Of a stretch of 22,036 nucleotides of DNA, positions 11,649 to 14,882 are shown piece by piece. The stretch is taken from positions 1-22,036 of the IMG/VR virus record IMGVR_UViG_3300034062_003009, one strand, 5' to 3'. Position 1 is the first letter of the stretch. Each line of letters starts with the position of its first letter. A program made the translations under genes and the position numbers. Below the pieces are notes generated by a model. That model made no database searches. It was not told the origin of the DNA and worked only from the letters and a program-made list of their open reading frames with translations. Source of the stretch: a virus.

Positions 11649-11679
11649 CGCCCCAACCGTAAGAAAAAGTCACCACTTT

Positions 11680-11699
11680 TCGTATCATATACGATACGA
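11680..11699. promoter_or_regulatory. Palindrome TCGTATC-N6-GATACGA
   Basis: A perfect 7-bp inverted repeat around ATATAC, enclosed by a second inverted repeat CGCCCCAA (11649-11656) and TTGGGGCG (11700-11707). A shorter relative, TCGTAT-GTG-ATACGA, lies at 14330. It could be an operator or recombinase site, or part of a terminator stem. Confidence 0.45.
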
Positions 11700-11731
11700 T
11701 TGGGGCGGCCGAAACTGCGTAATGTCAACGA

Positions 11732-11754: not shown

Positions 11755-11771
11755 AACCGAAGAGTGGCACA

Positions 11772-11831
11772 GCGATCCCGGCGGGCAGGCACCGCACCGA
11801 TAAAGCGGCCCGCCGAACCCGCCGGGATCGC
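11772..11831. repeat. 14-bp inverted repeat before first array gene
   Basis: GCGATCCCGGCGGG (11772-11785) and CCCGCCGGGATCGC (11818-11831) are exact inverted copies. An alternative inner pairing GGCGGGC/GCCCGCC (11780-11786, 11807-11813) exists. It lies 19 bases before the start at 11851. A terminator, attenuator or decayed attC-like site are possible; no GTT end is present. Confidence 0.5.
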
Positions 11832-11850: not shown

Positions 11851-12126
11851 ATGAGCGACATCCTGGCCGACTACCGCGAGTGGCGTGACCAACAGGCGGC
11901 TCGCGTCAGCACCCACAGCGGCGGGTGCCATATGTGGCACAAGGACTGCATGATCCACCGGCTCGCGGATGCGCTGGAGCGAGCGAGGCTCACCGACGAG
12001 GAGCGGCACGCCATCGCGGTCGTCCGCAACTGCGCCATGACGCGAGCCGAGAGGTTTCTGACGCAGAGCGATGCGGAGAGGGAAGCGACGCTTGTGCTGT
12101 GGAGATTGCGGGAACGGCTGGGCTGA
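11851..12126 (+). CDS. LTDEER-type small protein (array gene 1)
   Basis: 91 aa. The N-terminal half is MSDILADYREWRDQQAARVS followed by a Cys/His patch (SGGCHMWHKDCMIHRL). The C-terminal half has LTDEERHAIAVVRN and ends LVLWRLRERLG. The LTDEER-x-AI motif with a Leu/Arg-rich end also occurs in the array gene at 13719; I associate this kind of protein with planctomycete genomes, but the function is unknown. I chose ATG 11851 (GGAG at 11838-11841) over GTG 11764, because the longer form would run through the inverted repeat at 11772-11831. The stop overlaps the first attC-like site. Confidence 0.6.
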   Translation: MSDILADYREWRDQQAARVSTHSGGCHMWHKDCMIHRLADALERARLTDEERHAIAVVRNCAMTRAERFLTQSDAEREATLVLWRLRERLG

Positions 12127-12172
12127 GAACGCCAGCGATCAGCGGCTCGTCCGCTGCATCGCGTGGTTATGC
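12124..12172 (+). repeat. attC-like site A
   Basis: 49 bases. The outer box TGAGAAC overlaps the stop codon of the preceding gene and the other end is GTTATGC (12166-12172). Inner arms CAGCGG (12140-12145) and CCGCTG (12151-12156) pair around CTCGT, and GCGAT pairs with ATCGC outside. One base on the 3' side is left unpaired, as in attC sites. The loop holds no start codon. Confidence 0.75.
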
Positions 12173-12197
12173 CGGGTTGAATCACAAGGAGACGCAG

Positions 12198-12488
12198 ATG
12201 CGAATCGTTGGCTTTGAAGAGTTTTGCAGCCTGCCCGAAGGCACCGTGTTTTCCTACTGGAAGCCGTGCCAAACGTCTGGCTTGTACCGGCGAGGCGAAG
12301 TCATCTCGTTCGACGGCGGGCCGCGTGATTTCTACGAGGCTTCGCTTTTGGCAGAGAGCCGCAACGGGGAGCCGCCGGCTGTCGATTTGACTGAGGGTCG
12401 CTGGGGTATGTTTGACTACGACCAGCAGTTCGCCGTTTATGAAGACCAAGACATTTACGACATGATCTATGGGCTGGGGATAGCATAG
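12198..12488 (+). CDS. Hypothetical acidic protein (cassette 2)
   Basis: 96 aa with its own ribosome site (AAGGAGACGCAG before ATG 12198). Sequence: MRIVGFEEFCSLPEGTVFSY, YRRGEVISFDGGPRDFYEAS, GRWGMFDYDQQFAVYEDQDI, ending YGLGIA. It is aromatic-rich and acidic, without membrane segments; it resembles small accessory proteins of phages and cassettes, but no family is recognised. Its cassette begins with TTATGC, and the repeat directly after its stop begins GCATAAC, the exact complement. The gene following site A thus has its own start, in contrast to those following sites B-E. Confidence 0.65.
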   Translation: MRIVGFEEFCSLPEGTVFSYWKPCQTSGLYRRGEVISFDGGPRDFYEASLLAESRNGEPPAVDLTEGRWGMFDYDQQFAVYEDQDIYDMIYGLGIA

Positions 12489-12577
12489 GCATAACGCCAG
12501 AGATCTGCGGCATCGAACACAGGAGCAACCATGAGTGACGAGGTAGATGAGATGTCCGCTGGATCGCTTGGTTCTCG
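12489..12577 (+). repeat. attC-like site B, start-carrying
   Basis: 89 bases. Outer boxes are GCATAAC (12489-12495) and GTTCTCG (12571-12577); inner arms are CTGCGG and CCGCTG. The loop contains CACAGGAGCAACC and ATG 12531, so the next gene starts inside the site. Because the two outer boxes belong to different cassettes, only AAC/GTT pair here. Confidence 0.7.
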
Positions 12578-12719
12578 CCTGCTGTCTATGGTGGCGATTG
12601 TCATTGCCGGCCTTGCGCTGTGGCGGTTTGGGGAAATGGCTGTCGTTGTGCAAAACCTGATCGTAGCCCAGCAAAGCGACAATCGAAGGCTTGACGAACT
12701 TGAGGCAGCAAGGAGATAG
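12531..12719 (+). CDS. Small membrane protein with attC-encoded leader (cassette 3, gene 1)
   Basis: 62 aa. The first 14 residues (MSDEVDEMSAGSLG) are encoded by the loop and 3' arm of site B; the cassette itself contributes from Ser15. A transmembrane segment (SMVAIVIAGLALWRFGEMAVVV, about 19-40) is followed by a helical, charged tail (AQQSDNRRLDELEAARR) that could form a coiled coil. AGGAG lies before the ATG, inside the site. N-out/C-in topology is not decidable. A role in the cell envelope, in exclusion or in lysis is possible but not shown. AAGGAGA in its last codons serves the next gene. Confidence 0.65.
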   Translation: MSDEVDEMSAGSLGSRLLSMVAIVIAGLALWRFGEMAVVVQNLIVAQQSDNRRLDELEAARR

Positions 12720-12724
12720 ACGAA

Positions 12725-13027
12725 ATGGACGTTGTAACTGGTGAAAAATCGTATCTGCTCACGGACTACTGCCCGAGCCGGAAGTACGCGCTGGCGAAGT
12801 TCACGGACGGCAACGGCAAGCAGTGGTGGCAACTCGCCTACCGCTGGGGATTGTGGACGTACTATCTGAATCGGCTCACGCGATTTGCGAGCGGCTCAAC
12901 CGGCGTGAGGCATCCGATGGTGTTCGATACGCCGGAAGAGGCGAAGGAGCATCTGGCGTGGGAGCGAGATGAGATCGACCGCGAGGCGAAGTCGCAGGAC
13001 ATCTCTATGGAGTTTGTGGACGGCTGA
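12725..13027 (+). CDS. Hypothetical Trp/Tyr-rich protein (cassette 3, gene 2)
   Basis: 100 aa, five bases after the membrane protein in the same cassette, with AAGGAG before ATG 12725. Features: MDVVTGEKSYLLTDYCPSRK, GKQWWQLAYRWGLWTYYLNR, then a helical acidic C-terminus FDTPEEAKEHLAWERDEIDRE. It is the only cassette here with two genes, so the pair may act together (for example a membrane protein and a soluble partner). No family is recognised. Its stop TGA overlaps the outer box of site C. Confidence 0.6.
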   Translation: MDVVTGEKSYLLTDYCPSRKYALAKFTDGNGKQWWQLAYRWGLWTYYLNRLTRFASGSTGVRHPMVFDTPEEAKEHLAWERDEIDREAKSQDISMEFVDG

Positions 13028-13114
13028 GAACGCCAGAGATGAATGGCTGCGAACACAGGAGCATGACACCATGAAAGACGAAGCCGAGCAGTCCATTCCA
13101 TCGCGTGGTTCTGT
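13025..13114 (+). repeat. attC-like site C, start-carrying, second arm type
   Basis: 90 bases. Outer boxes are TGAGAAC (13025-13031) and GTTCTGT (13108-13114). Inner arms differ from site A (GATGAATGG-CTG against CAG-TCCATTCCATC) but still pair with each other, so the change is compensated on both sides, with an extra base on the 3' side. The loop carries AGGAGCATGACACC and ATG 13071. Confidence 0.72.
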
Positions 13115-13385
13115 GGGCGAAGTGCTGGCGAAGGGCATCGCGGACATCATTCGGATTGCGACCGAGCCGGATTGGATTCCGGTGGCGGAGCAGAGACCTC
13201 CTGACTGCCAGGCGGTGCTCGCCTATGATCCGCGAGTGCCAGCCGACGACGCAATCGCCATGCTGTCGTTCAACGTATCCAGCGGAGAGTGGTCGTGTCC
13301 GTGTGCTCGCGAGAGCGATCCCGCATATGACTACGAGCCGACCCACTGGATGCCGCTCCCGGCCCCGCCACAAGCCGACAGGTAG
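13071..13385 (+). CDS. DUF551-domain protein with attC-encoded leader (cassette 4)
   Basis: 104 aa. Residues 1-13 (MKDEAEQSIPSRG) come from site C. After a helical VGEVLAKGIADIIRIATE, the domain from Trp35 (WIPVAEQRPPDCQAVLAYDP) to THWMPLPAPP near the C-terminus has the W-I-P-V opening and T-H-W-M-P-L-P ending of DUF551, a small domain frequent in phages and prophages with no settled function. The leader is additional to the normal DUF551 unit. The cassette starts TTCTGT, and the site after the gene begins ACAGAAC. Confidence 0.75.
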   Translation: MKDEAEQSIPSRGSVGEVLAKGIADIIRIATEPDWIPVAEQRPPDCQAVLAYDPRVPADDAIAMLSFNVSSGEWSCPCARESDPAYDYEPTHWMPLPAPPQADR

Positions 13386-13387
13386 CC

Positions 13388-13476
13388 ACAGAACACCAGC
13401 GATCAGCGGCATCGAACGCAGGAGCGACCATGACAGACGAGGTGAATGAGATGTCCGCTGCATCGCGTGGTTCTGG
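13388..13476 (+). repeat. attC-like site D, start-carrying
   Basis: 89 bases. Outer boxes are ACAGAAC (13388-13394) and GTTCTGG (13470-13476). Inner arms GCGATCAGCGG and CCGCTGCATCGC pair with one extra base on the 3' side. The loop holds CGCAGGAGCGACC and ATG 13430. Confidence 0.75.
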
Positions 13477-13672
13477 CGGCGGATCCGCAGGGTTCACCGC
13501 AGAACTTTCCGACCTGCTCAACAGGTACACCATGGAGAGCGCGAGCGGCACACCAGACTTCATCCTCGCAAGGTATCTCACCGACTGCCTTCTCGCGTGG
13601 AATCGGTCGATGCAGGAGCGTGAGGCATGGTACGGCCGACAGGCCAACCCCGACATGAGCGGATTGGATTGA
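13430..13672 (+). CDS. Small helical protein with attC-encoded leader (cassette 5)
   Basis: 80 aa. Residues 1-14 (MTDEVNEMSAASRG) derive from site D, followed by a flexible SGGGSAGF. The body ELSDLLNRYTMESASGTPDF then ILARYLTDCLLAWNRSMQER and EAWYGRQ is mostly helical and reminds me of small phage-associated proteins with a TPDFILA..L..CL..W pattern; I cannot name a family. The Gly/Ser stretch would act as a linker between leader and body. The cassette start (G)TTCTGGC is the exact complement of GCCAGAAC in the site following the gene. Confidence 0.65.
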   Translation: MTDEVNEMSAASRGSGGGSAGFTAELSDLLNRYTMESASGTPDFILARYLTDCLLAWNRSMQEREAWYGRQANPDMSGLD

Positions 13673-13762
13673 GCCAGAACGATTGCGATCAGCGGCATCG
13701 AACACAGGAGCATGACACATGACAGACGAGAATGAGCAGTCCATTCCATCGCGTGGTTCTCA
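13673..13762 (+). repeat. attC-like site E, start-carrying, chimeric arms
   Basis: 90 bases. Outer boxes are GCCAGAAC (13673-13680) and GTTCTCA (13756-13762). The left half is like site D (GCGATCAGCGGCATCG), while the right half is like site C (CAGTCCATTCCATCGCG). The inner arms therefore pair imperfectly. The loop holds ACAGGAGCATGACAC and ATG 13719. Confidence 0.68.
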
Positions 13763-14009
13763 GGTGGTGGCCTACGCCGTGATCGACGACGAAGGCGTTC
13801 AGCACTCGCTATGGTTTCTGGAGAGCGACGCGACGAGCGAGGCCGCGATGGTCGGTGGGACTGTGGTGCGGCTTGGCTCGCCCACGCTCACCGACGAGGA
13901 GCGGACGGCCATCGGACTTGCTCGCTCTGTGTTTGAGGATTACAAGATGAGTCGGCTCCATAGCGCTGCCGACGAGGTGCTGGAACGTCTCTTGGAACGG
14001 ACGAAGTGA
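13719..14009 (+). CDS. LTDEER-type protein with attC-encoded leader (cassette 6)
   Basis: 96 aa. Residues 1-13 (MTDENEQSIPSRG) come from site E. The body has a beta part (VVAYAVIDDEGVQHSLWFLE) and the helical C-terminus LTDEERTAIGLARSVFED then YKMSRLHSAADEVLERLLER. The LTDEER-x-AI motif is shared with the array gene at 11851, so related proteins occupy two positions in the array. ATG 13712 is out of frame and rejected as start. The stop overlaps the TGAGAAC box of site F, the complement of the cassette start TTCTCA. Confidence 0.65.
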   Translation: MTDENEQSIPSRGSQVVAYAVIDDEGVQHSLWFLESDATSEAAMVGGTVVRLGSPTLTDEERTAIGLARSVFEDYKMSRLHSAADEVLERLLERTK

Positions 14010-14096
14010 GAACGCCAAGGATCAGCGGCTCGCGACCGCTGACGAAACTACAACCAGACGGCGGTATCGCGAGTCCGCTGCATCCGTTGGTTCTCA
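14007..14096 (+). repeat. attC-like site F
   Basis: 90 bases. Outer boxes are TGAGAAC (14007-14013) and GTTCTCA (14090-14096). This is the longest stem: GGATCAGCGGCTCGCG against CGCGAGTCCGCTGCATCC, with two extra bases on the 3' side (read on the bottom strand as G and A). The 33-base loop has no ribosome site or ATG, and the next gene has its own. Confidence 0.78.
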
Positions 14097-14114
14097 ACGT
14101 AAAGGAGCAGTGAA

Positions 14115-14270
14115 ATGCCGTGTCCGAGATGCAATGGTTTTATGGGGCCGATGAGCGACATCTGCCATGATTGCGGCCATGTTGACGGCGAGCCTGGAAT
14201 GTCGCGATGGCTTCTATTCATGATTGTGATGGCTGCGGTTGTCGCAATAACGTCGGCCCTGATCCCGTAG
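14115..14270 (+). CDS. 51-aa zinc-ribbon membrane protein (cassette 7)
   Basis: Own ribosome site AAAGGAG and ATG 14115. The N-terminus has two Cys pairs, CPRC (3-6) and CHDC (about 17-20), spaced as in a small zinc ribbon, then GHVDGEPGMSRW and a transmembrane segment LLFMIVMAAVVAITSALIP to the end. Such ribbon-plus-helix mini-proteins are common in bacteria and phages; the function of this one is unknown. The stop codon overlaps the GTAGAAC of a decayed attC-like site. Confidence 0.6.
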   Translation: MPCPRCNGFMGPMSDICHDCGHVDGEPGMSRWLLFMIVMAAVVAITSALIP

Positions 14271-14307
14271 AACGCCTTAGCGCCGCTGGGGTCGCTGATG
14301 TAGGCGG
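14267..14307 (+). repeat. Decayed attC-like site G
   Basis: GTAGAACGCC resembles the left side of the other sites, followed by TTAGCG and CGCTGATGTAGGCG, which pair as CGCCT/AGGCG and AGCG/CGCT. No GTT end follows; instead a small GGTCGG/CCGACC hairpin (14308-14320) lies downstream. It is probably a broken site that left two genes in one unit. Confidence 0.4.
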
Positions 14308-14326
14308 GTCGGGGCCGACCTAAATC

Positions 14327-14575
14327 ATGTCGTATGTGATACGAAAAATGCCCAACGAAATGCCTTGGTATGCGTGGTTTTCTCTGGCCGTACTCATTCC
14401 GGCGTCGTTCTTTGGGTCGGCTTGGTTGATGCACTGGGCAACAGGATCTGACCCGCTGGTTGAGGAGATATGGCGGCTGCGTGGGCAGAACTCGGTGCTG
14501 CGGGAAAGGCTGGAGCAACTGGAGGGCGAACGGCGGCGCGATGCCGACACGCTCCGTAAGGTGATCGGGAAGTGA
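14327..14575 (+). CDS. Small membrane protein with coiled-coil tail (cassette 7/8)
   Basis: 82 aa. A basic N-terminus (MSYVIRKMPNEMPWYAW) is followed by a transmembrane segment FSLAVLIPASFFGSAWLMHW and a helical tail EEIWRLRGQNSVLRERLEQL then EGERRRDADTLRKVIGK with heptad-like Leu spacing. It has the same plan as the protein at 12531. ATG 14327 lies next to a palindrome and has no clear ribosome site; ATG 14348 is an alternative that would shorten the N-terminus by seven residues. The stop overlaps the TGAGAAC of site H. Confidence 0.58.
   Translation: MSYVIRKMPNEMPWYAWFSLAVLIPASFFGSAWLMHWATGSDPLVEEIWRLRGQNSVLRERLEQLEGERRRDADTLRKVIGK
14330..14344. promoter_or_regulatory. Palindrome TCGTAT-GTG-ATACGA
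   Basis: A perfect 6-bp inverted repeat around GTG directly behind the ATG at 14327. It shares TCGTAT...ATACGA with the palindrome at 11680. If 14348 is the true start, it would sit as an operator in front of the gene. Confidence 0.4.
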
Positions 14576-14622
14576 GAACCATGCAATTGAGCCGCACTCA
14601 GTGCGGCCTAACACCGTTAGAC
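14573..14622 (+). repeat. attC-like site H, canonical 3' box
   Basis: 50 bases. The left box TGAGAAC overlaps a stop codon, and the right box GTTAGAC (14616-14622) fits the textbook GTTRRRY. The inner stem GCCGCACT-CA-AGTGCGGC shares two bases of the loop, so the actual stem is about GCCGCAC/GTGCGGC; CTAAC follows, recalling class 1 integron attC sites (GCGGCTTAAC). It is the last site of the array. Confidence 0.7.
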
Positions 14623-14678: not shown

Positions 14679-14882
14679 ATGATCTGCACACTCCGATTCC
14701 GACTCCCCGACGACCAGGGCGAGTACGACGCCGCCCGGCTGGGCCGCGCCGCCCTCGCCGCCCTCTGGCAGATCGACCAGCACTGCCGAAGCCTGATCCA
14801 GCACGGCGAGCCCACCGACGAAGGGCGGGGGCTGGCAGAGGCGATTCGGGCGATGATCCCGGCGGAGTTGCTTGAGGTGTAG
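14679..14882 (+). CDS. 67-aa hypothetical protein after last cassette site
   Basis: MICTLRFRLPDDQGEYDAAR followed by LGRAALAALWQIDQHCRSLI and helical DEGRGLAEAIRAMIPAELLE. One strand and three helices are likely. The open frame runs back to 14601, but ATG 14679 is chosen because the upstream part would be site H. GC content returns to phage level in this gene, so it may be the resident phage gene that bounded the array on insertion. No family is recognised. Confidence 0.6.
   Translation: MICTLRFRLPDDQGEYDAARLGRAALAALWQIDQHCRSLIQHGEPTDEGRGLAEAIRAMIPAELLEV

Follow-up and report, generated by a model that had tools for sequence, protein, structure and literature searches.

A phage-borne, integron-like cassette array in which attC-like hairpins appear to carry the start codon and N-terminal leader of the gene behind them

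The nearest structural precedent for the array described here is provided by the integron cassettes and CALINs of phages reported by Qi et al. 2023 (PMC9892861), a study in which start codons within attC are not discussed. The nearest translational precedents are ORF-11 of attI1 and the short ORFs of attC sites (PMC8876359). In attI, the stop codon of ORF-11 is supplied by the cassette core and the ORF acts by coupling (PMC8876359), whilst attC stem-loops hinder translation, a block that short ORFs in attC have been proposed to relieve (Jacquier et al., as presented in PMC8876359). The extrahelical bases of attC are assigned by definition to its R''-L'' arm, and the crossover moves when they are inverted (Bouvier 2009, PMC2727003); known sites, when folded as the bottom strand, show T-N6-G or T-N6-C (PMC3053210).

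The window, meaning the whole stretch of DNA analysed, is an entire IMG/VR virus record of 22,036 bases. It encodes a terminase large subunit, a lambda-type portal, a capsid/protease and tail genes, and the record therefore represents a tailed phage. Six attC-like sites, A to F, lie at approximately 12128-14578, with the structural genes on one side and a small conserved gene (14679-14882) on the other. Their features are as follows, with AA|C and G|TT denoting the junctions at the 5' and 3' ends of a site, respectively.

12130-14578, plus strand: cassette array, its units inferred by the AA|C junction rule
12130-12494, 12495-13030 and 13031-13393, plus strand: inferred units A, B and C, bounded by AA|C junctions
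13394-13679, 13680-14012 and 14013-14578, plus strand: inferred units D, E and F, bounded by AA|C junctions
12128-12168, plus strand: site A, attC-like hairpin of 41 nt with a non-coding loop
12198-12488, plus strand: gene of cassette A, 96 aa, with its own Shine-Dalgarno (SD) and its own start, AAGGAGacgcagATG
12493-12573, plus strand: site B, attC-like hairpin whose loop and 3' arm contain SD AGGAG, ATG at 12531 and leader MSDEVDEMSAGSLGS
12531-12719, plus strand: gene B1, 62 aa, starting within site B
12725-13027, plus strand: gene B2, the other gene of cassette B, 100 aa, with its own SD (AAGGAG)
13029-13110, plus strand: site C, ATG at 13071, leader MKDEAEQSIPSRGS
13071-13385, plus strand: gene C, 104 aa, in which the leader is joined to a DUF551 domain (PF04448, residues 35-101)
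13392-13472, plus strand: site D, ATG at 13430, leader MTDEVNEMSAASRGS
13430-13672, plus strand: gene D, 80 aa
13678-13758, plus strand: site E, a hybrid with a 5' half of the site D type and a 3' half of the site C type
13719-14009, plus strand: gene E, 96 aa, starting within site E
14011-14092, plus strand: site F, attC-like, 82 nt, without a leader ORF, a strong hairpin (DNA z -5.4)
14115-14270, plus strand: gene F, 51 aa, with its own SD and its own start, AAAGGAGcagtgaaATG
14327-14575, plus strand: second ORF of the last unit, 82 aa
14577-14620, plus strand: right-hand edge of the array, fixed in sequence (AAC|CATGCAATTGAGCCGCAC...), a candidate attI-like end

The preliminary description had placed AGGAG and an ATG in the loops of sites B to E (ATGs at 12531, 13071, 13430 and 13719), and both these coordinates and the leaders it quoted proved exact. 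All four leaders cross G|TT in one phase (GG|T TCT), and sites A and F, as it had stated, lack a loop ORF and are followed by genes that start, behind their own SD and ATG, at 12198 and 14115. Two corrections apply. Site E is a hybrid whose arms are mismatched and give no stable fold, although the leader MTDENEQSIPSRGS from the ATG at 13719 is still intact; the hybrid junction of this site falls inside the conserved loop. Cassette B contains a second gene, at 12725-13027. Site D folds well as both DNA and RNA (z of about -2.5 to -3), and for sites B, C and E folding was not better than that of shuffled sequence. For gene C, the mechanical reading frame extends upstream to 12969, but the SD is at 13071.

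Some further observations concern the layout of this region. The block carrying the 82-aa ORF (14327-14575) recurs in L036, L042, L081, L084 and L011. Non-coding sites of 80-83 nt (L002 at 4342, L003 at 262 and 14011-14092 in the window) contain a second conserved hairpin, CCCGCGACCGCTGAC...CATCGCGGG, and match the coding sites in total length, as if site length itself were constrained. A conserved hairpin, GATCCCGGCGGG...CCCGCCGGGATC, precedes the first gene of the array region (11769-11830) and is also present in L002, L017, L024, L027, L036 and L084. The region is flanked by a 28-nt inverted repeat at 11674-11701 and 14323-14350 (CGTATCATATACGATACG type, 86% complementary), the copies of which are perhaps operators or promoters. 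No known RNA family was detected in the window with Rfam.

Contigs for the wider survey were fetched with a relative of gene C, with the loop motif and with two 3'-arm patterns, the latter chosen to avoid selecting on the SD or the ATG; a purely mechanical search for AAC/GTT palindromes was too noisy and arm-based matching was used instead. After de-duplication this gave about 367 sites in 164 loci, all from uncultured phage contigs. The same site pattern produced 3 chance matches, none with a leader, in the genomes of approximately 85,000 prokaryote species (one genome per species), and among INPHARED phages there was nothing resembling the array at the DNA level. That the prokaryote genomes yielded only chance matches suggests a cassette-exchange pool carried by phages, which would hold small genes of mostly unknown function.

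The phase rule seen in the window extends well beyond it. Across the three samples, 235 sites carry an SD and ATG in the loop, and the ATG-entered frame crosses the junction in phase 1 at 224 of these, in phase 0 at 11 and in phase 2 at none. Strict SD and ATG sites in the loop-motif contigs gave 127:4:0 in phases 1:0:2, once one false site, the source of the sole phase-2 case, had been removed, and the samples fetched by 3' arm only gave 27:3:0 and 70:4:0 (together 104 coding sites, 97:7:0). This bias is far beyond chance; the counts are not independent events, as sites within a family share ancestry, and around a dozen unlike loop families agree. The gap between AGGAG and ATG is free to vary (5, 6, 7, 8, 9 or 10 nt), irrespective of multiples of three, and the length from ATG to GTT is always 40, 43, 46, 49, 52, 55 or 58 nt in phase 1 and 42 or 48 nt in phase 0. 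None of the 224 phase-1 leaders meets an in-frame stop within the site. Behind G|TT, the ATG-entered frame continues without a stop for a median of 88-91 codons, compared with 20-30 in the other two frames, and in complete cassettes 76 of 98 leader ORFs end between -2 and +14 bases from the next AAC. The GC content by codon position is equal in the first 15 codons past G|TT and in codons 16-45, and more than half of the leader-dependent genes (46/83) lack an in-frame ATG in their first 20 codons. Phase-0 leaders (MNKPTDALAGPLHRVV, MSSDVDASPLHPVV) precede cassettes in which phase 0 is often open, and those cassettes beginning GTTAG would hit TAG in phase 1. A few coding sites stand before genes with their own SD and start, and there the leader stops early. 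Taken together, the phase and the open frames support the proposal of the preliminary description that it is the site, rather than the cassette body, which would supply the ribosome site, start codon and leader, with a fixed phase that keeps many unrelated genes in frame.

The leaders themselves are diverse (167 unique), with residues that vary freely whilst acidity is kept: the part encoded in the loop is net negative in 157 of the 167. The stem arm encodes their last residues, S-x-A-S-x-G-S or similar, and the proteins fused to them are many and unlike: DUF551, a mosaic LTDEEREAI family, and methyltransferase-like and membrane-protein-like sequences, the last two as read from sequence. Leader-bearing homologues outside arrays had been named at the outset as evidence that would count against such a device; the homologues of gene D outside arrays align from residue 22, without the leader, and one of them, gp117 of Mycobacterium phage Cuke, begins at the domain (MSDFDEFEKELASLINRHSMENGSGTPDFI), an outcome that favours the device. 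Cassette genes are also mosaics, in which unlike N-terminal halves precede a common C-terminal LTDEER...LLERTK/LRERLG module, found in the window at 11851-12126 and 13719-14009 and in the L032 cassette at 1508; this sharing implies that exchange also occurs within genes. The tail LTDEERHAIAVVRN is common to the gene before site A and to c57.

The 193 unique sites form imperfect inverted repeats with AAC...GTT ends and paired L boxes, a result that is partly by construction given that the site finder demanded AAC/GTT ends and arm pairing. Most stem positions are more than 95% paired, with covariation. An extra base is present in the 3' arm at 192 of the 193, and the mRNA-sense strand reads T-N6-C in 175 and T-N6-G in 10 (together 185/193). 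As the extrahelical bases lie in the 3' arm and the strand reads T-N6-C/G, the mRNA-sense strand corresponds to the attC bottom strand; the crossover is therefore expected at AA|C, the 5' end of the site, and the genes run antisense to attC. The start and end of a cassette are complementary, as expected of integron cassettes, where this lets the circular form restore the R arms, at 4.55 of 6 bases against 2.68 for shuffled ends, which couples the terminal stop (TGAGAAC, CATAAC) to the first codons past the leader (GGT TCT CA, GGT TAT GC). The seven-base core GTTRRRY / RYYYAAC fits only 5 of 366 sites, and GTTCT is present in most of the 366. Nor is the integron order found, in which attC follows the 3' end of the gene with a boundary at G|TT; the boundary here lies at AA|C and the site goes with the gene behind it.

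Comparison of related genes in different arrays bears directly on which gene a site belongs to. In the first sample, the upstream site was more alike than the downstream site in 12/12 gene families (p = 0.0005), with mean site likeness of 0.87 upstream, 0.65 downstream and 0.63 for random sites. In an enlarged sample, for which neighbours were required to differ on both sides, the upstream site was better kept in 13/15 families (0.83 vs 0.67, p = 0.006), the rule being broken in the other 2/15. Leader-dependent genes need coding sites, which accounts for part of the raw upstream excess, though not all of it: against a class-matched null, upstream-site identity in the enlarged sample was 0.807 vs 0.740, a moderate excess. 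The profile across near-identical genes falls away on either side, from 0.91-0.96 in the gene to 0.84 in the upstream site and 0.32 in the neighbour before it, and to 0.71 in the downstream site and 0.30 beyond. In the best pairs, from L033 and L037, two units with identical site and gene stand in the opposite order, and the junctions lie at AA|C, 5' of the site. Given the kept upstream sites, the AA|C junctions and the extrahelical bases, a site and the gene that follows it appear to form one mobile unit, and the start codon would normally be part of the gene's own cassette and not lent onward. This reverses one element of the preliminary description, in which the site of one cassette was donated to the gene that the following cassette carries.

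Near-identical genes do sometimes carry differing sites or leaders, which indicates that exchange at G|TT or inside sites also happens. A gene in L001 that is 87% identical to gene C bears a different leader, MSDDTKRSVASDGS; the pairs L082/L219 and L068/L206 differ up to G|TT; L002 and L227 have different sites with a common 3' arm; and of L008 and L053 one has a coding and the other a non-coding site. Leader swaps at G|TT on one gene appear to be a minority, secondary route. The idea that any gene can stand behind any site thus holds with respect to the fixed phase and to leader swaps (window gene C/L001, L082/L219, L002/L227), but probably only as that secondary route.

We also considered which recombinase might act on these sites. 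A search for IntI (TIGR02249) found none in 8 records, and another 48 gave a single weak match, below the cut-off, although these records may be fragments. A tyrosine recombinase is present in 27 of 49 contigs tested, and 13 of 17 examined form one coherent family of approximately 300 aa (L099-L106, L108-L111, L115). These enzymes score as Xer/lambda type and not as IntI, and the ~300-aa family scores with XerD/XerA. Where positions are known, the recombinases lie mostly far from the array. The shared Xer-like enzyme may be the array recombinase, or may serve only as a lysogeny integrase. At the other end of the question, the right edge of the window's array (AAC|CATGCAATTGAGCCGCAC...) recurs in L011, L077 and L081 behind differing last cassettes, and fixed right edges AAC|CATGCAATT and AAC|CAGTGTTTCTGCGG occur in several phages; such an edge is a candidate attI-like site. 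Edges of the form AAC|CATGCAATTGAGCC or AAC|CAGTGTTTCTGCGG adjoin the conserved small gene (14679-14882 in the window) in the window, L027, L036, L037, L067 and L070, and arrays occupy the same place in different phages.

The reading that we consider very probable is that of a phage-borne, integron-like array whose unit is an attC-like hairpin plus the gene that follows it; this gene would run opposite to the usual attC orientation, and the leaders would start in the loop. The hairpins, their phase, the open frames, the unit boundaries and the strand polarity are results read from sequence; leader translation and the recombination step are inferred. One folded strand would serve recombination, carried out by a tyrosine recombinase in trans, and with the crossover at AA|C, on the 5' side, a moving unit would keep the hairpin ahead of its own gene. 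An mRNA with the sense of this strand would offer the SD and ATG in the hairpin loop. At most hairpins the ribosome would start there, translate the 3' arm into a short flexible linker (S-x-A-S-x-G-S) and pass over G|TT into the gene in a set phase, so that the protein would gain an acidic N-terminal extension of 14-20 residues. At hairpins that lack a start codon, the unit's own SD and ATG just behind G|TT would be used. Starting in the loop would spare the ribosome the upstream half of the stem, with the 3' arm melted during translation, and may in this way avoid the known hindrance of attC stems to ribosomes.

A related view, which we hold only tentatively and judge rather less likely than its opposite, takes the separation from integrons further. 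Here the arrays would be a phage-specific system, distinct from integrons but related to them, with a GTTCT core, no IntI and possibly an Xer-like recombinase; the hairpin would again provide the start and the N-terminus, with genes moving at AA|C and leaders being swapped at G|TT.

A mosaic could also arise from ordinary homologous recombination between recurring hairpins and stretches of genes, without any site-specific recombinase. The hybrid site E, joined in the conserved loop, is consistent with this, as are the C-terminal halves common to different genes (for example the LTDEERHAIAVVRN tail) and the failure to find IntI in the 8 + 48 records beyond one weak sub-cut-off match. However, such a process gives no role to the conserved extrahelical bases and strand polarity, nor to the compensatory stem changes and self-complementary cassette ends, and we regard it as an unlikely account of the arrays. 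More doubtful still is the textbook arrangement, attC after its gene, under which shuffling at G|TT would let every site provide the start and leader for whatever gene the next cassette brings. The fixed crossing phase fits this arrangement, as do the differing leaders on one gene (window gene C/L001, L082/L219, L068/L206, L008/L053), but homologous genes hold their upstream site far more than their downstream one, the clearest pairs are joined at AA|C and the extrahelical bases point to a 5' crossover, such that lending as the main route is largely refuted. Least probable of all is that the leaders are untranslated relics, with internal starts or termination-reinitiation and a loop ORF that serves only to clear the hairpin, as has been suggested for short ORFs of class 1 attC sites (Jacquier et al., as reviewed in PMC8876359). 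Coupling is the known mode of action of both ORF-11 in attI1 and short attC ORFs (PMC8876359), and a few coding sites do precede genes with their own SD and start where the leader ends early, but the leader frame runs stop-free into a gene of full length, with codon bias from the junction onwards, and a usable internal ATG is lacking in many genes.

If hairpin and gene do form one unit with a leader started in the loop, then a natural DNA recombination site would be at once a ribosome landing site and a protein-coding sequence, under joint constraint from folding, phase and peptide. This would answer two problems posed by integron cassettes, namely how promoterless shuffled genes are translated and how attC stems are kept from blocking ribosomes. 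A literature search, which reached few subscription papers, found no description of attC sites that encode the N-terminus of their own gene. Nivina et al. 2020 reportedly placed synthetic attC sites in coding sequences, where they encode a peptide in frame; in comparison with those engineered sites, the ones considered here are natural and widespread. A large natural set of folded, coding attC-like sites would offer a template for in-frame gene shuffling in the laboratory.

We have called these arrays integron-like, and not integrons, because they depart from integrons in the GTTRRRY core, in the gene-then-attC order and in the search for IntI. They resemble the phage CALINs (PMC9892861) in being clusters of attC-type sites without a nearby integrase in phages, with small cargo genes and with folded sites that have R and L boxes. 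They differ from these in having genes antisense to attC, a site at the 5' end that encodes the N-terminus along with the SD and ATG, and a GTTCT core, and in recurring across well over a hundred contigs. With ORF-11 of attI1 in class 1 integrons (PMC8876359) they share an SD and ATG within a recombination site and a small ORF that crosses the crossover point, but here the leader would be fused to a full protein, and this occurs in attC-like sites throughout the array. Finally, as in the effect of attC on translation described by Jacquier et al. (as reviewed in PMC8876359), an attC hairpin lies in the mRNA beside a cassette gene; whereas the hairpin in that case is an obstacle between genes, in these phages it would start its own.
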